DNA from: Caenibius tardaugens NBRC 16725
GTDB taxonomy: Bacteria; Pseudomonadota; Alphaproteobacteria; Sphingomonadales; Sphingomonadaceae
Assembly: GCF_003860345.1 (NCBI RefSeq)
Contig: NZ_CP034179.1
Span: 4,200,001 to 4,264,000 of the forward strand
Length of the DNA: 64,000 nucleotides
Direction of reading: 5' to 3'
The position numbers were made by a program, and so were the translations under genes. This document shows positions 21,178-34,089 of this stretch, piece by piece. Within the stretch, counting starts at the first letter, position 1; the number at the start of each line of letters is the position of its first letter. The notes below the pieces were generated by a model that was given only the letters and a program-made list of their open reading frames with translations, made no database searches and was not told the origin of the DNA.

Positions 21178-22629
21178 TCAATTCACCGTGCACTCGAAAG
21201 TCAGCGTGGCGCTCTGTCCAGAGTCCAGAGCGGAGAGCGCAATACCTCCGGCGCCGGTAAGATCGGCTACCGTATAGCTGCCTGCAGGAACGCCATTGCC
21301 GGTAATCGAGACCGGATTAGCCGGCGGGCATGTCAAGCCAGTGCCGGGGGTGTCTTTCACAACCGCGCCAGCGATATTTACCGGGCCGTTGTTGGTTGCG
21401 ACGATAGTGTAAGTCGTCACACCTTTTGCGACCCAATCGTTGGCCTGATCGACATTGTTGTTCACCCCGGGTGTATTCGTCTTGGTGATACCAAGGTCGA
21501 CATCGGGGATATCGGTGAAATCGCATTGAATTTGCGAGGTTGGGGTCACGTCAGCAGCCGCAAGCGTGAGAGAAGCTGTCGCTGGCCCTTCGATCGGGGT
21601 CGAAAGCGTTGCAAGGACGGCATTTCCATTGGCCACGTCGTAGCATTGCGCCGCCGTGAGCGTCCAATTGGCCGGCACATTCTCGGATACCACAGTATCG
21701 AGGCCGGAGTTGGAAATGTAGCGTTGAAGGCCATTGGTATACGCACCGCTTGCACTGACGGCGATGGTTTCCCCCGTTGCCGCAACGTCGCCGGTGGCAG
21801 CAGCGGTCACGACATTGGCGGGGTATGCAAAGGGGAAGTTGTTGGTCCCACCAGCACCGACGGTTTGTTTGCGCAGCAGGAGTGAAGGCTGATTGATCGA
21901 CAGGGCCAGATAATGCCCATCACCTTCTGAGCTATCCTCCCCGTCGAAGTAGGTAAAATTGAACGTGCTCACCGTTGGCGACGGACTTATGAAATTGACT
22001 GTGCCACAGGATCCATGGGAAAGGTTCGCACCAGTGTAGCAGCCAATGTTTTGGGCAACCATCCACGCGCTATTCACATAGGAATCGCTGTTATCAAACG
22101 GCGCATGCAATTCGCCTACGTCGAAAAGGCTGTTACCGGCGAGTTTGTTAGGTTTCACGCCCGAAAAAAGCACAACACCGGCATCCAGGTTGTTCCAGTG
22201 AAAACGCAATGCTTGTGGGTCAACGGCTAACGGCACGTTGCCGGGCGTCGAAAATGTGATCACCCCGTTAAACGTGGGGCTAAGCTTGCTTGCACAACCT
22301 GCATCAGTGGCGTCCCGCCCTGTGTTAACGGCCACTGCCTTGACCCCCGAAGGAACCGGATCGAAATACGATAGCCCGCTCGGGAAATTCTGTTCTGTAA
22401 GATTGAACGGAGCTCCGGGTTGGCAGGTCGCGGCCGTGGTCGTTATCGTCGCTTTGGTGTCACCCAGAGCGACAGTGAATACCCGGCCGCCGAACACGGT
22501 GTAATTAGCCCCCCAAACCGTTCGCGATTGCGCCTGCGCCTGAGATACCGGCAATGCAATGAACAGAAGCACAAGTGAAAGAGCCAGTTTCCCCAACGCC
22601 TTCCAGCTCAGGCCAGCAGTTCCCGTCAT
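21178..22629 (-). CDS. Exported DUF11-like surface protein
   Basis: Third gene of the surface-protein operon, 483 residues from the ATG at 22629. That start is favoured because it gives a clean signal peptide (LGKLALSLVLLFIALPVSQAQAQ); the frame also has GTG/ATG at 22683/22680, which would overlap the preceding stop. The mature part is Thr/Asn/Gly rich and predicted all-beta. A C-terminal DUF11-like module contains DLGITKTNTPGVNN, TYTIVATNNGPVNIAGAVV and KDTPGTGLTC. The paired cysteines are typical of exported proteins. There is no anchor or OmpA domain. It probably works with the two upstream gene products at the cell surface; the function is unknown. Confidence 0.75.
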   Translation of the reverse strand: MTGTAGLSWKALGKLALSLVLLFIALPVSQAQAQSRTVWGANYTVFGGRVFTVALGDTKATITTTAATCQPGAPFNLTEQNFPSGLSYFDPVPSGVKAVAVNTGRDATDAGCASKLSPTFNGVITFSTPGNVPLAVDPQALRFHWNNLDAGVVLFSGVKPNKLAGNSLFDVGELHAPFDNSDSYVNSAWMVAQNIGCYTGANLSHGSCGTVNFISPSPTVSTFNFTYFDGEDSSEGDGHYLALSINQPSLLLRKQTVGAGGTNNFPFAYPANVVTAAATGDVAATGETIAVSASGAYTNGLQRYISNSGLDTVVSENVPANWTLTAAQCYDVANGNAVLATLSTPIEGPATASLTLAAADVTPTSQIQCDFTDIPDVDLGITKTNTPGVNNNVDQANDWVAKGVTTYTIVATNNGPVNIAGAVVKDTPGTGLTCPPANPVSITGNGVPAGSYTVADLTGAGGIALSALDSGQSATLTFECTVN

Positions 22630-22679
22630 ATCGTTGAATTCCCCATCTGTGCGATCACTGTCAATCGTGCACCAAGCCA

Positions 22680-25600
22680 TCACAACCGGCCAACCACGTT
22701 CAGGAACAAGCCCTTGTGATTATAGTCGAAGTTCGTCAGATCATCGCTGAAGTCCGTGAAGTTGAAGCCGACTCCCACGCGCATATTATCGGTCAGATCG
22801 TAGTCGATCCCGACCAACGCGCCCTGACGGACGCCGCCCTTGTCGATGGCGAGGAGCCGGTATTCGGCCAGGCCATGCCATTTCCCCAGCAGCCCATACC
22901 GAAGCTGCGCGGCGCCAAAGGTCGCGCCGGAATCCGCCCATTGCCCTTCGCGACGACCAAACCGGACCTCGCCTTCACGGCGCATCAGCTTTCCGGCAAA
23001 TTCCCAGCGCCGATCGGCATGATAGATCCCCTCCATGGAGAATATCTTTGAACGCTGATCGTAATAGGCGACATTGTCACCAACCTGGGCCAGCGACGAC
23101 ACGTCGTAGAAATAGCTCGCTTTGCCCAGCAGCGCCCAGCGGGTCGAATTCCATGGCCGCCACGCAAAACCCACGTTCGCTTCGATGAAGCGTGCGTCGG
23201 CCAGCGGATTGATCTTGTCTTCGGTTTCGGAGAAGTTGAAACGGCCCAATACGCGAAAGCTCTCGTTGAACTTGTGCGCGAAGCGGTTGGTCGTAACCCA
23301 TTGGGTGCGGTGTTCCGCACCTGTATCATGGCGCCATTCCAGTTTTGTCTGCCACTGGGTCCGGTTGCTGGTGTATCCGCCGTTGATGCTGATCGCGCGG
23401 CGATCCACTGTTTCGATACCGCCGCTGGTCGTATCCCGGCGAAGCTCGGCGCTTTGCACCGTGAATCCCATGTTCCAGCCAACTTTGGGATAGAAATCCA
23501 TGCCAAATGTGTGGGCCAATCCATTTTCGTTTCCGGTCCCGCGCAGATACTGGCTCTCGTTGAACATCGACACCTGGTTAGACAACCGCCAACGCTGTCC
23601 CAGAGTGGCCCCGGTGGCCCCCCGGTTATTGAACAGCGGGTCGTAATCCGTACGGTCTGTCGAATAGGTGTAGCTACCATAAATCGAATGATCTGGCGCG
23701 AGCTTGTATTCGGCATTCACCCGCGCCGCATCGCCTCGGTCGCCCGTAAGAACCTCCGCGCCGATAGTGGATTTTTTGCCGAACAGATATTTGCCGCCAA
23801 CGGTCAGGGCATCGTTATCTGCATAAGCGCCCTGATCGTCATCCAACGTCAGCTGGCCAATGGCGTAGAGATCCAGCGATGAACCGATGCGATGCGTATA
23901 CTGCACCGCACCAAGCGTTCCATGGGCCGATCCGCCCAGCCTGTCTTCCTGCACATGCCGCACTTCACCCGTCAGCACATTGTTCGGCGTCAACGACCAT
24001 TCCGCGGTGAACTGTCCCTGTGTCAGAGACTGAGCCCCCTGCTCCGCCTTGCTCGCGCGGGCATAGAATTTGACGTCGGCTGCCGGTTCGCCTTGCAGCT
24101 CGCCGCCATATTCCGTGATGGCCCGGCCGAGATCGGCTCTCGCGACCGAGTATCCCGCGTCGACATCGCGCCACCATGCAGACGCGCTCCAATCGCGCGT
24201 GGTCAGGCCCAGCTCCTTCAGATTGACGCGTGCCTCGATTGCAGTGGCGTCGCCCTTGCGGCGGCCGGTGACAGCGTTCATCTCGCGGAAATCAAGACCG
24301 CCGTTATCCGAGTAAAACACGGGGGCGCTCGTGGCTTTCGTCCACGACCGCTCGACCTTGAGATAGGTGCCGCGGCCAGCTTGCAGGGTCAGATCGACAC
24401 CTTTCAGAGAATAATCGTCACCCGCCCGGTTTTCCTCGACCCAGGTACCGCCGATTCCGATGTGGTCCCCGAACCAGTGCTTGCCCCGGGCGCCGAAACT
24501 GGCGTTATCCATATCCAGACCGCTCGGTACATATTCATAATCGACGAGCAGATATTGCGCGAAACCGTCCAGCGGAGCCAGACTGGTGATCGACGTGGTG
24601 TTGTCACGAACCAGCTGGGCCAGAGGCTTCGTCAGGATCATGCGCCCCTGCAGTTCGTCCATCTCGTAATCTGCGCCGCGCAACAGATCGATGCGGTTCT
24701 CCACCCGTCCAGTTGAAGGATCGCGCACTTCAATCACCACGCGGTCGGAACCTGGCAGAAGGTCGGTATGTTTCAGATAATAAAGGCTGCCACCGGTGCC
24801 GAGAAATTCGCTATGCCCGGGCGAAGTCTGCGATTCCGATGCAAATCCGCGCAATTCCGTACCCGGATCGCCATATTCTGTCGTGCGGCGGCTCCGCAGT
24901 TTTAGGGCGCCACCATAAAGGGCGCGGGAATATTGCGCATATTCAGTGCCGGTGATCCCCGTTTCGAAATTGCCGAACAGTGCGGTGTTCTTGTCCCAAT
25001 CGACCCTGACATACAGCCGCCCCATGGTGTCGATATCACGATAGCTGGTCGAATCATCGCCATAGACTGGATAATAGGCGTCCGGATCAAGCCGCCGGAA
25101 CACGTCCGTGGGATCCGCCTTCCAGAACCCGTCGAAGACATCGCTCAATTGGCGTTCCGTGGTATCCATCTGGGCGGTGATGAGATACTTCCCCTTGACC
25201 TTCCCCTTCAGATAAAAAGCTAGCCGTCCATCGACGAGGAAATCCTTGCGAAAGCTGTCATCGGGAGCGAGCGGCTCGACCGACCCCGAAACATCCCCGG
25301 CCGAAGCCGTGATGTCGGCAATGCCAACCAGAAACATGTAGCGGCCGGTGACATCGACATCCAGCACACGGTTCATGCGTTCCTTGTCCCCGAAAACCGA
25401 AACGTCGAACTTGTGGTTCCCGATCGGCACGAGATACTCGGCAACCATCTTCCCTTCCTGATCCACGGGATGGTTCTGGCCGTTGATCTCGATCGAATGG
25501 CGCTCCGGGATGTTGCGTCCCTGAATCCTGATACGCGAACCATAGATGGCGATGTTCTGCTGACGCAAACCGTCCGCCCCGAACACGCCCTGAGTCAGGC

Positions 25601-26399
25601 TCCGGCGTTCCGCCTCGTCCGCCGACAGGGAAAGACCCTGCTGTTTCTCCGTCGCTTGTCTGGAGAGCTGCGCGCCGCGGTCCGCCTCTTCCGGTGACAC
25701 CAGTTGTATCCGGCGCGGAAACGTCTCGTCGAAGACATTCTTCTCGTCCCATACGCGCATGATGTAGATCAGCTCGTCCCCCGGCTTCAGTTTGAGGCCT
25801 GTCGGAAGGGCCCCATCCCACGACACCTCGTCCATTGCGGCGAGATTGGCGTCGAGCTTCGCGATCGGGCTGACGAGATCGACGTCGGTGGACCGGAATA
25901 TCTGAATCTCGGCCTTCTTGATGAAGTCGGGATAGTTCGAATAGGTGACGAAACGGACAGGCTTGACGATCTTGCCATGGTCAAACCCGGCCAAGGTTGG
26001 CGCATTCACGTTGAGGATCGGTTGTCCCAGGCTCGGATCCTCGGTGGCCCAGATGACCCCGCCGTTCGCAAGCTGAACCGCCCATTTTCCGGAGAGATTA
26101 GCGCGGCCGGGCTGTTCCGGCCGGGCCGGCTGTTCCAGCGATACCGAGACGCGCCGATCCGGCTGGAGACCGGACGATGTTCGGTCGCTGCCGTCGGTGA
26201 GCGGCTGCTGTTCACCCCGTGTGCGAATCTGCACCAGTGTGCCTTCGTCGCTGACGCAGCCATCTTCGCCGCACTGCACACCACTGATCGGGGTCGTTCC
26301 GGTTGCAGTCGTCGTGACCTCCTGCGCCGAGGCCGAGGACATGGCCATGGAAACCGGAACACTGAAGATGACGCAAGTGAATTTGTTCATGATACGCAT
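22680..26399 (-). CDS. Large outer-membrane beta-barrel-like protein
   Basis: Second gene of the operon, about 1239 residues from the ATG at 26399 (GGGGGA about ten bases upstream; the frame is open to 26432). The signal peptide is MNKFTCVIFSVPVSMAMSSASAQ. Residues ~100-370 look like periplasmic beta-sandwich modules (IRIQGRNIPERHSIEINGQ). From ~380 to the end come amphipathic, aromatic-rich beta-hairpins (GRLAFYLKGKVKGKYLITAQ, then many YGSYTY/WRWRL-like strands), ending in LFLNVVGRL as expected for an outer-membrane barrel. It is not a standard TonB receptor because no plug motif is seen. It starts four bases after the stop of the DUF11/OmpA gene. An export or display role for the flanking DUF11 proteins is inference. 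Confidence 0.78.
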   Translation of the reverse strand: MRIMNKFTCVIFSVPVSMAMSSASAQEVTTTATGTTPISGVQCGEDGCVSDEGTLVQIRTRGEQQPLTDGSDRTSSGLQPDRRVSVSLEQPARPEQPGRANLSGKWAVQLANGGVIWATEDPSLGQPILNVNAPTLAGFDHGKIVKPVRFVTYSNYPDFIKKAEIQIFRSTDVDLVSPIAKLDANLAAMDEVSWDGALPTGLKLKPGDELIYIMRVWDEKNVFDETFPRRIQLVSPEEADRGAQLSRQATEKQQGLSLSADEAERRSLTQGVFGADGLRQQNIAIYGSRIRIQGRNIPERHSIEINGQNHPVDQEGKMVAEYLVPIGNHKFDVSVFGDKERMNRVLDVDVTGRYMFLVGIADITASAGDVSGSVEPLAPDDSFRKDFLVDGRLAFYLKGKVKGKYLITAQMDTTERQLSDVFDGFWKADPTDVFRRLDPDAYYPVYGDDSTSYRDIDTMGRLYVRVDWDKNTALFGNFETGITGTEYAQYSRALYGGALKLRSRRTTEYGDPGTELRGFASESQTSPGHSEFLGTGGSLYYLKHTDLLPGSDRVVIEVRDPSTGRVENRIDLLRGADYEMDELQGRMILTKPLAQLVRDNTTSITSLAPLDGFAQYLLVDYEYVPSGLDMDNASFGARGKHWFGDHIGIGGTWVEENRAGDDYSLKGVDLTLQAGRGTYLKVERSWTKATSAPVFYSDNGGLDFREMNAVTGRRKGDATAIEARVNLKELGLTTRDWSASAWWRDVDAGYSVARADLGRAITEYGGELQGEPAADVKFYARASKAEQGAQSLTQGQFTAEWSLTPNNVLTGEVRHVQEDRLGGSAHGTLGAVQYTHRIGSSLDLYAIGQLTLDDDQGAYADNDALTVGGKYLFGKKSTIGAEVLTGDRGDAARVNAEYKLAPDHSIYGSYTYSTDRTDYDPLFNNRGATGATLGQRWRLSNQVSMFNESQYLRGTGNENGLAHTFGMDFYPKVGWNMGFTVQSAELRRDTTSGGIETVDRRAISINGGYTSNRTQWQTKLEWRHDTGAEHRTQWVTTNRFAHKFNESFRVLGRFNFSETEDKINPLADARFIEANVGFAWRPWNSTRWALLGKASYFYDVSSLAQVGDNVAYYDQRSKIFSMEGIYHADRRWEFAGKLMRREGEVRFGRREGQWADSGATFGAAQLRYGLLGKWHGLAEYRLLAIDKGGVRQGALVGIDYDLTDNMRVGVGFNFTDFSDDLTNFDYNHKGLFLNVVGRL

Positions 26400-26403
26400 G
26401 GCC

Positions 26404-29400
26404 TTATCGTCCCCCATTTGTGAGGGGCGCACTGGGATCCTGGCTGACCTCTACGCGGAGCTTCGCGCGAGCCTCGGGACTGAGCAGACGCGCGATGGCG
26501 TCGAACACGGCCTTCGATCTCCGCATGGCAAGATCGGTATTATGGACGTCGGAGGCGCGACGGTCGGCGTATCCAACGATGCCCACCACGCCGCCTTTCA
26601 TCTTTTCGATGTCGGTCGCTATCGCCGCGATCACCGGCACATACTTTGCCTTGATCGCCGTCTCGTCCGTATCGAAGAACACGTCCCGCAGTACCGGATT
26701 AGCAGCCAGCGAAAGCAGCCCGGTCCTGTTGTCAGACGGTACTGTCCGCAGTGTGACCACGGTTCCCTTGATGGCCACGTCCCCGACCCGATCGCGAAGC
26801 GCCGCCTGGACCGATTGTGCCCGGGCATAGGCCAGTTCAGGCGTCTCGCCAGTGGCGGAGATAACGATCTCTCCACCCTCGTGACCGCGGATCTGCTCGG
26901 CGACGCTGTCCAGCGCCCCTTCCGTACCCGGACGTATCAGCGCGCTTCCCGGATTGAACAGGACGCTGCCCAGTTCAATCTCAATCGTTTTCTTCGCGCC
27001 CTCGATCAGACCATCCGGCAGCTTGACCCCCCAGTCGAACCGGACGGGAATACCCGGCGTGATACGCCGCAACAGCGGATTGGCGGTGGTCAGCGCTGCA
27101 CCCTCTGGCAGTGTTGCCGTATCCAGTTTGAGGATGAAATTGCGGCCACGCTCCCATGCGCCGCCAGAGATGCCGACGATGTGATAACGCCCAAACTGAT
27201 CGGTTTCGGAGATCAACCCTTCAACCGAAGCGATCCGGACACCGGGAATGCCGCGCTCATCGACCCCGTGATTGGTAATCACGTAGTCCACGGCGAGCCC
27301 GTCTCCTACCTGAGTCACCTGACGCTCGATCACCAGATCGGCCCCGGTCAGTCCGGCCTTGGCATCGCCTGAACGCTCGACACTGGTCTGGCCGTCTGCC
27401 GTCATACGATAGGTCAGGCCCTGCCGGGTTGTCAGAACGAAGTCATCGGTGAATGCTGGCGACGACAGCTTCTGGCGGATAACAATGCGATGGGTCTCGA
27501 TCGGGTCTGCATCCGATTGCCGTGCCGACAATTGGCCAAATTCAAGCCCATGGAGGAGCGGCGCGCTGGCATCGACCTCCGGCTGCATTCCTTTGCCGCG
27601 GTCTATCGTGGTCGAATTGGGAATATAGGCCCCGGGCGCAAACCCGCCGCTGACCTTGATGTCGCTAAGAGCGGCAGTATCCTGCCAGCCATCATGGTCA
27701 CGATCATCGAACACCGTGCCGAGGATCAGAGTTTCGTCGATGAGCGGATCACCGACCAGTTGCACTTCAGCCGTCGCCACGTTGGAGGTTACACTCCCGC
27801 GCCGGGCGTGGGCGTGATTGATATGGATGCCACTGCGGACACCTGCACCAACCCGCAGCAGATAGGTGAGGATCGCCTTGCCATCGGCTTCGATATCAAG
27901 CTGATCGACGCGGATAGGATAGGTGCCCGCCAGACGTCCGAGATCATCCTGATCGGCGACGGTCAGCGACTTGTCGACATAGGTGAAACCGGCTGGCGGG
28001 GTGTCGATCAGCGTTACATCGCTTACACCCCAGGGGCTGAGGTTCTCGACGGTCACCGTATACCGGACAAGATCACCGACCCGCACATCGCGCGGAGCCG
28101 CGCTCTTCGTCACTCTCAGAACCACCGGGGTCGCCTCGACCTCGACAGCTGCCTCGCTACCGGCGGTAACTTTGCCGCGAGCCGGGAACCCGGTCACCAC
28201 GACCTTGTTCTCAAGATCGACGCCCGCATCTACGTCAGCTTCGGTGATAGTGTGCGTATAGGTCCGGCAGGTAGCCGTCTGCCCAGGCAGCAGACGCGTC
28301 GGGGTGCAGTCAAGCGCGGTCGGTGCCTGATTCTGGAGCGTATCGATCGTTTCGAAGCGTTCGATGGTTACGTTGCCGATGTTGTGAACCATCACCGTGT
28401 AGGTGATGACATCACCAATATTACCTTTGCCCGGCGTCAGGCCATCCGTGGTCAGTGCTGCGACCTTGGTCACCTGAATCGCGGGATTCTGCGCAAGCAG
28501 GGTAACCGTCGGATTGTCGAGCGTCGGGCTCCCGCTGTCTGAAATATCGGTGACCTCTTCACCGCCCTCGACCGTGCCGAAAGCGGTCGCGGTATTAACG
28601 ACCTGCCCGTCATCGACGTCGGCCTGTGTCAGCACATAATGCGCGGTGAAAGTAGACGAATCCGACTGCCCGACTGCAAGGCTCGCCAAAGGCCCACCGG
28701 ACACAGCCACCAGCGTATCGGTGACCCTGACATCCGTAAGGGGCATATTCCCTACGTTCATCACGGTGAATTCATAGTCGATCGCGTCACCCGCACCGCC
28801 GATAAGTCCATCGCCATTGGTGTCGACCGGTTCAGAAGCATGCTTGATCAGGGCGATCTTCGGCTGCGGAACCACTGCTACCGTCGTCGTGGTCGTGGTC
28901 GAAGGCGGCGAGCCGATTGTCCCGTCGTCTGGATCGCTACCGCTGGCCGTGGCGCTGTTGACCACGCTGCCGGGCACATCGCTGACCTTGATCGTGTAGC
29001 TGGCCGTGAAGGTTGTGGTGTCATGCGCACCGCTCGCCAGCGTCGCGATCGGGCCACCACTCAGCACCACATCAGCCAGCGTGTCCGCGACCGTCACATT
29101 GGTCAGCGGCACATTGCCGGTGTTGTGGACGTCAAAGCTCCAGTGGATCACGTCGCCTGCATCGGTGATGCTGTTGCCGTTGGTGTCCGTGACCGAGGCT
29201 ACCGTCTTGGTCAGCGCCAGCGAGGGCTGCGACACTGTCGTCGTGGTCGTGGTCGAAGGCGGCGAGCCGATTGTCCCGTCGTCTGGATCGCTGCCGCTGG
29301 CCGTGGCGCTGTTGACCACGCTGCCGGGCACGTCGCTGACCTTGATCGTGTAGCTGGCCGTGAAGGTTGTGGTGTCATGCGCACCGCTCGCCAGCGTCGC

Positions 29401-30776
29401 GATCGGGCCGCCGCTCAGCACCACATCAGCCAGCGTGTCCGCGACCGTCACATTGGTCAGCGGCACATTGCCGGTGTTGTGGACGTCAAAGCTCCAGTGG
29501 ATCACGTCGCCTGCATCGGTGATGCTGTTGCCGTTGGTGTCCGTGACCGAGGCTACCGTCTTGGTCAGCGCCAGCGAGGGCTGCGACACTGTCGTCGTGG
29601 TCGTGGTCGAAGGCGGCGAGCCGATTGTCCCGTCGTCTGGATCGCTACCGCTGGCCGTGGCGCTGTTGACCACGCTGCCGGGCACGTCGCTGACCTTGAT
29701 CGTGTAGCTGGCCGTGAAGGTTGTGGTGTCATGCGCACCGCTCGCCAGCGTCGCGATCGGGCCGCCGCTCAGCACCACATCAGCCAGCGTGTCCGCGACC
29801 GTCACATTGGTCAGCGGCACATTGCCGGTGTTGTGGACGTCAAAGCTCCAGTGGATCACGTCGCCCGCATCGGTGATGCTGTTGCCGTTGGTGTCCGTGA
29901 CCGAGGCTACCGTCTTGGTCAGCGCCAGCGAGGGATATCCCACAAAAACGTTGGTTAGCGTGCAACTGACGGAGGCACCAAGCACCACATTGACAGCAGT
30001 CAGGCCACTACCGGCGGGTCCGCAATCCCAGCCAGCATTCGTATAGTCCGGATCAACATTGCCAGAATCTGCCGGCCCGCCACTCTCGGCGAGCGAATAG
30101 GAACCCGGCAGCACCGCTACATTTGTAACGGATGCATTACCCGTGACGCCACTCAGCGTCTGAGGACCTATAGCAGTAAGGGTCCACTGGTCTGCAGTCG
30201 CCGTACCACCACCACTGTTATCTACGTTCTTTATCAGAGTGAGCGTTGCACCCTGGTCATCATTCGTGATTTCACACGTGACTTGGGCACTTTCCGCCAA
30301 TGTCACAGAGCCAGCACCAAACGCGCCTGAAACGGCACTGAAACCCGTCCCGCTGCAAGTCCAGGTACCCTCCGTGTATCCCGCTGTATCAAGTTCCGAT
30401 AAGGAATACGTTCCTGGCTCTACGTTGAGAATGGTTGACGTATAGACAGCGTTCGTTGCCGTTCCCGTGTTCGCACCAAAGGACAATGTCCCGGCACTCG
30501 TTGTGATCCCAAAACTCGTGGCGGTTGCATCGCCGCCGTTATCATTTGTGACACGCTTGATAATCGTCAGTTGAACGAGAACATTATCACTGTCTGCCGC
30601 ACTATTGTCAGTGGTGTTGTCTTCCGTGAGCCCCGTTGGCGCAATGATCGTGGCGGTATTCGTAACCGTTTGCGCCAATGCCGGCCGCCCCCCAAGGGGG
30701 CCAGCAGGACCATAAGTCCAAACATCGTTCTCCGGAAGAATGCCGGAATGCGCGATGGAAGAAGGTATCCACTCAC
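26404..30776 (-). CDS. Giant DUF11-repeat surface protein with C-terminal OmpA-like domains (start region frameshifted)
   Basis: First gene of the operon, ~1460 residues. The N-terminus contains Cna-B/SpaA-like modules (LTIIKRVTNDNGGDATATSF). Three almost identical 118-residue DUF11 modules follow (LALTKTVASVTDTNGNS, WSFDVHNTGNVPLTNVTVAD), then more divergent DUF11 modules (ITYTVMVHNIGNVTIERFET) and two OmpA-like segments near residues 1270 and 1365 (LGSVLFNPGSALIRPG; VFFDTDETAIKAKYVP). The main frame opens with a non-signal sequence, while the GTG at 30776 in the -1 frame gives FFRRTMFGLMVLLAPLG. Adding one base at the G6 (30688-30693) or C5 (30696-30700) run joins this to GRPALAQT, a proper signal peptide. 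OmpA domains suggest peptidoglycan tethering. Confidence 0.8.
28873..29934 (-). repeat. Three tandem 354-bp repeats inside the DUF11 gene
   Basis: Units at 28873-29226, 29227-29580 and 29581-29934 are nearly identical at the DNA level, with only a few substitutions noticed. Each encodes one 118-residue DUF11 module including a TTTTTTV linker. Such identity implies recent duplication or ongoing gene conversion and makes copy number likely to vary between strains and assemblies. Confidence 0.93.
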
Positions 30777-30844
30777 TTTGGTTCACCGCCAATTAAAATG
30801 AGACGCACGATCAATGATCAACACGCACATTGAGGTTTGTTTTT

Positions 30845-33610: not shown

Positions 33611-33952
33611 AGTAGTCCATTCTGAGAGTTAGGATTTCAGCAATTTTAAGCTTGGAAGGAGCTTTGAATGGCACGGAAGAGATACACGCCGGAACAGATC
33701 ATCGCGATGCTGCGAGAGGCGGAGGTTCGGCTTTCACAAGGAGAGAAGATCGGCGCGATCTCCCGATCACTGGGGATATCGGAGCAGAGCTGTTACCGTT
33801 GGCGCATGCCCACCCGATCATATCAGTTGCTACTAGCCGCCTGCCCCATAAACGTTCTTGCATGGTCTTGGTGGCCGAACCCACGCTGCGCTTCGGTCAG
33901 TCCATCAGGACGATCACGTTCGCCGGAACTCTAACTTATCCGGTGGACCCCA
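33611..33952. mobile_element. Deleted IS3-family element remnant
   Basis: The piece contains the start of an IS3-type OrfA at 33668. Its ends look like poorly matched inverted repeats: the left AGTAGTCCATTCTGAGAGTTAG (33611-33632) and right CTAACTTATCCGGTGGACCCCA (33931-33952) share in-register CTAACT and TGGAC blocks. OrfB is missing, so the element is internally deleted and inactive. It lies about 60 bp from tRNA-Arg. Confidence 0.5.
33668..33934 (+). pseudogene. Truncated IS3-family transposase OrfA
   Basis: The first ~46 residues match the OrfA helix-turn-helix of IS3-family transposases (MARKRYTPEQIIAMLREAE, ISRSLGISEQSCYRWR). After YRWR the sequence leaves the family and continues as unrelated residues for ~40 codons, so the leucine-zipper part of OrfA and all of OrfB are lost. 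GGAAGGAGC upstream supports the ATG. It is not expected to be functional for transposition. Confidence 0.75.
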
Positions 33953-34012: not shown

Positions 34013-34089
34013 TGGTGCGCCCGACAGGATTCGAACCTGTGGCCCCCAGATTAGGAATCTGGTGCTCTATCCTGCTGAGCTACGGGCGC
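34013..34089 (-). tRNA. tRNA-Arg(CCT)
   Basis: Read on the minus strand: acceptor GCGCCCG pairs with CGGGCGC, the D-arm is AGCTCAGCAGGATAGAGC, and the anticodon stem CCAGA/TCTGG has loop TTCCTAA with anticodon CCT. The T-arm is CAGGTTCGAATCCTG, followed by discriminator A and encoded CCA (34013-34015). Confidence 0.96.

Follow-up and report, generated by a model that had tools for sequence, protein, structure and literature searches.

Three adjacent genes of Caenibius tardaugens NBRC 16725 code for a giant repeat protein, a large barrel-like protein, and a smaller exported protein, and the first and third of these share a domain type, DUF11. The genes lie in the 64,000-bp stretch of DNA analyzed here (referred to below as the window; contig NZ_CP034179.1, positions 4,200,001 to 4,264,000) and raise the question of what such a set of proteins might build and why DUF11 domains are present in both the first and the last of them. 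The reading that we favor, at a probability of about 0.7, is that the third protein is a tip that is mounted on a wall-anchored stalk through a DUF11 domain divided between the two chains, that the join is probably locked by an isopeptide bond, and that the barrel serves as a conduit or collar. The original prediction, made from the DNA alone, overlooked what appears to be the main point, namely, that the two DUF11 proteins bear complementary parts of one domain.

Organization of the locus and its products

The three open reading frames (ORFs) are arranged head to tail on the minus strand, as are all features of these genes given below, with the stalk/anchor gene (the "giant"; 26404 to 30792, 1462 aa) followed by the barrel-like gene (22680 to 26432, 1250 aa) and the tip gene (21178 to 22683, 501 aa). 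The genes are real and close-packed, as predicted, and the gaps between them, put earlier at 4 to 50 bp, are 13 and 50 bp when translation is taken to start at the ATG codons immediately preceding the signal peptides (26390 and 22629). DUF11 matches in this genome are confined to the stalk and tip genes. The three-gene block may have been acquired, since the barrel is absent from all three of the other sampled members of the genus and synteny with one same-genus genome stops at a tRNA-Arg gene adjoining the region. Between the operon and this tRNA gene (34013 to 34089) is a transposase-like fragment (33668 to 33931, plus strand), which we take, from its motif, to resemble the OrfA of IS3-type transposases.

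The stalk is organized as tandem domains, with Pfam matches to DUF7507, SpaA_2, and DUF11 stretches, and ends with an OmpA peptidoglycan-binding domain (residues 1372 to 1435, 26488 to 26679; Pfam E value, 4.6e-9). OmpA-like ends had been predicted for this protein in the plural, of which the C-terminal one is recognized by Pfam, and the stretch that precedes it (residues ∼1262 to 1345) is OmpA-like by eye, without being matched by Pfam itself. In an alignment with solved OmpA domains, Asp1410 and Arg1425 fall on the conserved Asp and Arg, residues that presumably bind peptidoglycan. Three near-identical 354-nt repeats (28883 to 29934; 99% identity) code for stalk domains, and the last complete DUF11 domain is at 27802 to 28119. 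Stalk lengths reach 6,222 residues (locus L132), and in Sulfitobacter guttiformis the annotated gene for the giant occupies 18.6 kb of the 53-kb plasmid pSG53 (locus L036).

The signal peptide of the window's stalk is coded at 30691 to 30776, with a GTG start at 30776, in a frame that differs from that of the mature part. The junction between the two frames is a run of six G residues (30693 to 30688), and an in-frame signal peptide was not found for this stalk; relatives such as L018 have one in frame. The run may reflect an assembly error, a pseudogene, or a switch; phase variation at this site was considered, but the run is short, and an assembly error is just as likely.

The second gene product looks like a large outer membrane barrel, with a signal peptide, periplasmic-looking N-terminal domains, and a strand-rich C-terminal part. 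It has no Pfam or NCBIfam family at an E value of 0.1 and no sequence match in the PDB, in agreement with the earlier description of a barrel without a TonB plug. A TonB-dependent receptor was considered and is not supported, neither Pfam nor NCBIfam finding a plug domain, and similarity to SprA of the type IX secretion system (T9SS) is likewise not supported, a PDB profile search with the barrel having found no SprA. Relatives of the barrel were collected at 99 loci, or 96 distinct loci after removal of three near-identical copies (L102, L127, and L092), and the C-terminal residue is Tyr, Phe, or Trp in 88 of the 96; the window's barrel ends in Leu. A structural model built from an alignment of seven sequences has a mean pLDDT of 49.6 and is too poor to use, and its Foldseek matches to Deinococcus SlpA, T9SS SprA, MtrB, and other large outer membrane barrels have TM-scores of no more than 0.18 by query length. 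SlpA, SprA, and MtrB are matched by this poor model, but a search of PDB sequences found no similarity between them and the barrel.

Proposed division of a DUF11 domain between tip and stalk

The tip protein has a signal peptide, an N-terminal domain without an assigned family, a SpaA_4 domain, and a C-terminal DUF11 domain (21181 to 21504), whose Pfam match extends as far as profile position 84 of 114, where the protein itself ends. The domain keeps Lys401 and Asp444 and ends before the last strand, which is the one that bears Asn. In a 105-position DUF11 profile derived from the loci, these three residues are Lys 5, Asp 40, and Asn 102. The C termini of 50 proteins, from 40 loci, fall between positions 88 and 95 of this profile; the proteins were chosen for their early ending and not for Lys or Asp, and all 50 keep both residues. 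Among domains that are aligned to the end, 405 of 414 hold Lys, Asp, and Asn, a biased count because the alignment had to reach that far. The Pfam DUF11 match likewise ends at position 54 to 88 of 114 in each of the 10 tips scanned. The heads of these 10 tips vary, with SpaA-type domains in seven and CshA_NR2, a known adhesin domain, in two (L021 and L109). A structural model of the tip (six sequences; mean pLDDT, 41.7) is too poor to use, but the truncated-domain profile matches PDB entry 9IFR, with the Lys and Asp of 9IFR aligned. 9IFR is a DUF11 domain with an isopeptide bond formed from Lys715, Asp748, and Asn806, according to excerpts of PMC12617251.

After the signal peptidase site, the mature stalk of the window opens with QTVTNTATIIAP (residues 41 to 52, 30637 to 30672; Asn at residue 45), which corresponds to the final strand of a DUF11 domain whose remainder is absent. 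An orphan strand of this kind opens the mature stalk in 38 of the 59 loci that were classed. The isopeptide residues are divided accordingly in the two sets of proteins, with Lys and Asp on 50 of 50 tips and Asn at mature position 4 to 9 on 38 of 38 orphan-strand stalks, the latter having been picked by the Asn-bearing strand motif itself. Calls by script gave 24 orphan and 22 other stalks; reading by eye then moved L074 to the other class, moved L115, L119, L124, L152, and the window's locus from other to orphan, and moved L126 from noSP to orphan. L116 and L148 were dropped as N-terminal fragments, and longer stretches added nine orphan and five other loci. The final classes of the 96 loci are 38 orphan, 21 other, and 37 not classed (11 of which have a nearby tip gene), with orphan strands recognized by eye and with tip status in view, that is, not blind.

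The presence of a tip gene tracks the orphan strand closely. A tip gene is near the locus in 33 of the 38 orphan-strand loci and elsewhere in the genome in the remaining five (in G904, G783, G862, G748, and G1059), where there are often several truncated-DUF11 proteins per genome, and none of the 21 loci with other stalk N termini has a tip gene nearby. The initial tip search covered only the strand of the barrel, and the later nearby and whole-genome searches covered both; the tip genes of L113, L120, and L124 are 7.6 kb downstream in two cases and on the opposite strand in one. A whole-genome search of 19 genomes with other stalks gave no tip match at an E value of 1e-12 in 17 of them. The exceptions, G749 and G873, have tips, and a second stalk in G749 starts with an orphan strand; the second stalk of G873 could not be read. 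G903 also has tips, though the first stalk examined there is without an orphan strand, and its second stalk was not located in the sequence examined. When the 59 classed loci are placed on a tree of the barrels, the orphan/other state changes 11 times, at least 10 of them on supported branches, and in 10 independent pairs on the tree tip presence follows the strand in eight and runs opposite to it in none (P = 0.008).

Many dispersed truncated-DUF11 proteins (L182 to L211) are present in G748, G783, and G862, as though a single stalk could accept many tips.

Profile-based comparisons of the two ends are less clear. An independent tail profile scores at least 8 bits in 28 of 38 orphan stalks and 0 of 21 others, but also in 300 of 2,000 random internal windows, as would be expected of a repeat protein. 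Concatenation of tip C termini with stalk N termini gives no clear gain against the DUF11 profile (median, +0.7 bits, versus −1.1 bits for random internal pieces and +0.3 bits for other N termini), and profile position 102 is reached in 19 of 37 true pairs, compared with 89 of 740 for random internal pieces and 58 of 592 for other N termini. The concatenation test did not discriminate and counts against the split-join reading. At the level of sequence comparison, we consider the split join of tip and stalk to be well supported.

Fused counterparts of the tip are also present. Among 16 non-split stalks compared, six start with ∼300 tip-like residues, with identities of 95% (L105), 53% (L108), 52% (L074), 43% (L077), 40% (L037), and 38% (L112). 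The start of the L105 stalk is 95% identical to a tip of L114 over 300 residues and 80% over 466, and in L105 the tip-like part is followed by a DUF11 domain extending past the point at which the L114 tip stops. Some sequence is shared with tips by 25 of the 38 orphan-strand stalks too, mostly away from the first residues. Locus L087 codes for a 794-aa protein that begins with an orphan strand and ends in a truncated DUF11 domain, and this may be an adaptor that chains the parts between tip and stalk.

Linkage of stalk and barrel and the moving OmpA module

A DUF11 giant is located directly upstream of the barrel in 91 of the 96 distinct loci (89 by script and L081 and L084 by reading), the exceptions being L017 and L070 at contig edges, L082 (fused or cut), L090 (giant downstream), and L071 (apart). 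By genome, the barrel is apart from the giants in G175, the giant is downstream in G413, and the two are fused or cut at a contig edge in G473. The three genes had been predicted to form a surface apparatus, and a linked system is supported for stalk and barrel, with an order that is not absolute; the tip gene is optional and sometimes unlinked. The OmpA domain is found in three places: it ends the stalk in the window's group, it forms the N terminus of the barrel in Eleftheria and three other genomes, and in the Vibrio-type loci (L033, L078, L079, and L080), which are organized as giant, barrel, and then a lipoprotein-like gene, it is on that last gene in both of those scanned (L033 and L078). 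Such recurrence of one module at three positions suggests joint action of the stalk, the barrel, and the wall.

A scan of named genomes found six barrel loci at 54 to 62% identity (Lampropedia, Pseudoxanthomonas, three Luteimonas, and a Lysobacteraceae metagenome-assembled genome), and plasmid records hold 24 relatives, most at 26 to 32% identity. The barrel is present in 102 of 297 sampled genomes of the Lysobacteraceae, the family holding Luteimonas, at an E value of 1e-100, in 11 of 299 sampled genomes of another family, and in 56 of 398 sampled Pseudomonadota genomes at an E value of 1e-15, partial matches included. Within the family to which the window belongs, 12 of 59 genomes have a partial barrel match only, at 30 to 34% identity and mostly in ORFs of ∼1,700 aa. 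Three of the ORFs at L004 to L015 were translated, and in each a single chain has DUF11-like and other Ig-like stretches and, after these, a barrel-like part. Two scans of viral contigs for barrel relatives returned one identical contig (IMGVR_UViG_2684623061_000001; L093/L094), which is filed as viral; its giant and barrel are >97% identical to those of a bacterial chromosome locus (L127) and adjoin a gene that is phage-like by eye.

Proposed assembly, alternatives, and relation to known systems

In the assembly that we propose, tip and stalk would cross the inner membrane by Sec, and the free N-terminal strand of the stalk would fill the groove in the open DUF11 domain of the tip. This donor-strand complementation is, in our assessment, very likely. 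Lys and Asp of the tip and Asn of the stalk occupy the positions that these residues have in self-forming isopeptide domains, so the bond would probably form by itself, and a covalent join of the two proteins is probable for this reason. The loaded stalk would then pass the outer membrane tip first, most likely through the neighboring barrel, which would act as a conduit or collar for both proteins; we lean slightly toward the barrel being the export conduit. Export would stop when the C-terminal OmpA end is held on peptidoglycan, and the DUF11/DUF7507 (CLIPPER) domains would form a long rod with the stalk N terminus pointing outward and the tip, likely exposed at the surface and perhaps adhesive, on its outer end. 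Tips would vary and be exchanged, with some genomes holding many. Taken in full, as a natural tag/catcher split between two genes that clips exchangeable heads covalently to a peptidoglycan-anchored stalk exported via a dedicated barrel, the proposal has in our estimate somewhat better than even odds.

The strand could, however, be held without a covalent bond, with Lys, Asp, and Asn inherited from isopeptide-forming ancestors and unreacted across the chains. Donor-strand complementation is used by chaperone-usher pili, type V pili, and archaeal threads, as set out in excerpts of PMC9715654, and a covalent bond cannot be shown from sequence; but both Lys and Asp are kept in all 50 truncated domains, where a spent site would not need them (though folding could retain either), and we regard a purely noncovalent join as doubtful. 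More radically, orphan strand and truncated tip could be functionless relics of gene splitting, the strand being debris and the tip DUF11 a short stable subtype. Stalk N termini and tips do have domains in common, and the simple concatenation test is not discriminating, but tip and strand stay together or reappear together over at least 10 supported changes, in 8-to-0 agreement, the tips are multiplied and dispersed in G748, G783, and G862, which is unlikely for debris, and the L087 protein has the orphan strand and truncated end that a linker would have. We consider relics very improbable.

The remaining alternatives concern location and the barrel. It is improbable that the DUF11 proteins are periplasmic tethers between outer membrane and peptidoglycan, in the manner of Deinococcus SlpA, with the barrel as a structural porin: the OmpA domain with its conserved Asp and Arg would suit such a role, and Foldseek places SlpA complexes among the best matches to the poor barrel model, but the longest stalks would extend far beyond the periplasm if extended, repeats in the stalk have varied recently, and tips carry CshA_NR2 adhesin domains. 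The barrel could also be a TonB-dependent or porin-type transporter that is located beside the stalk through coregulation only. Several relatives are annotated as TonB-dependent receptors, and exbB, exbD, and a TonB-family gene come directly after one Phyllobacterium locus; against this, Pfam and NCBIfam find no plug domain in the barrel, the stalk is its conserved neighbor, and in some members of the window's family DUF11 domains are fused to a barrel 30 to 34% identical to that of the window, all of which make a transporter unlikely.

The preferred reading, a tip held on the stalk by a divided domain, has partial parallels in other systems. In chaperone-usher pili (FimH-FimG-FimD), the tip has an Ig-like fold without its last strand, the N-terminal strand of the following subunit occupies the gap, and there is an outer membrane barrel. 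The sequence pattern here is similar, with a tip domain without its last strand, a donor strand on the N terminus of the partner, and a putative barrel, but the fold is DUF11 with isopeptide residues, and a single giant stalk tied to peptidoglycan takes the place of a polymer. Membership in the chaperone-usher pili was considered and is not supported, as Pfam and NCBIfam assign none of the three proteins to an usher or a pilin family. Tag/catcher pairs such as SpyTag/SpyCatcher were reportedly engineered from intact isopeptide domains, and, like the pair proposed here, they have one isopeptide domain over two chains; here the division lies in the genome.

The original prediction that no such system had been described stands in part. 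OmpA-anchored DUF11 stalks in Proteobacteria and isopeptide bonds in DUF11 domains have both been published (excerpts of PMC10952558 and PMC12617251), and a divided DUF11 domain and a barrel partner were not found in the open-licence papers searched. Acinetobacter silvestris B9T28_05395 (9IFR) is an OmpA-anchored fibrillar adhesin that, as described in the excerpts of PMC12617251, shares with the window's proteins the DUF11 (CLIPPER) stalk, the C-terminal OmpA-like anchor, a CshA_NR2-like head, and the Lys-Asp-Asn isopeptide residues. Its head is on the same chain, whereas the window's stalk has an orphan strand instead, and a head-like domain is on a separate, third protein with a truncated DUF11 domain. 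The excerpts of PMC12617251 name no barrel partner, with 0 hits for the terms "barrel," "operon," and "outer membrane," and they report autocatalytic intermolecular bonds for phage capsids and an alpha-helical hairpin. The Sulfolobus archaeal threads resemble the proposed join in combining an N-terminal donor strand with a proposed intermolecular isopeptide bond, but they are archaeal polymers of another fold, with the bond running from an N-terminal Asp to Asn (excerpts of PMC9715654).

If true, the proposed reading would describe head mounting and display in Gram-negative bacteria without chaperone, usher, or sortase, in a system that is present in about a third of the sampled genomes of the Lysobacteraceae family, judged by the barrel. 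How wall-anchored fibrillar adhesins of Gram-negative bacteria are exported and exchange their heads is unexplained in the literature excerpts consulted, and a conserved, unnamed barrel family would gain a concrete partner. The divided domain would be an accessible natural example of protein ligation of a kind that biotechnology now makes by cutting domains, and, together with a separate head gene, it would let the cell keep one long stalk and swap heads.
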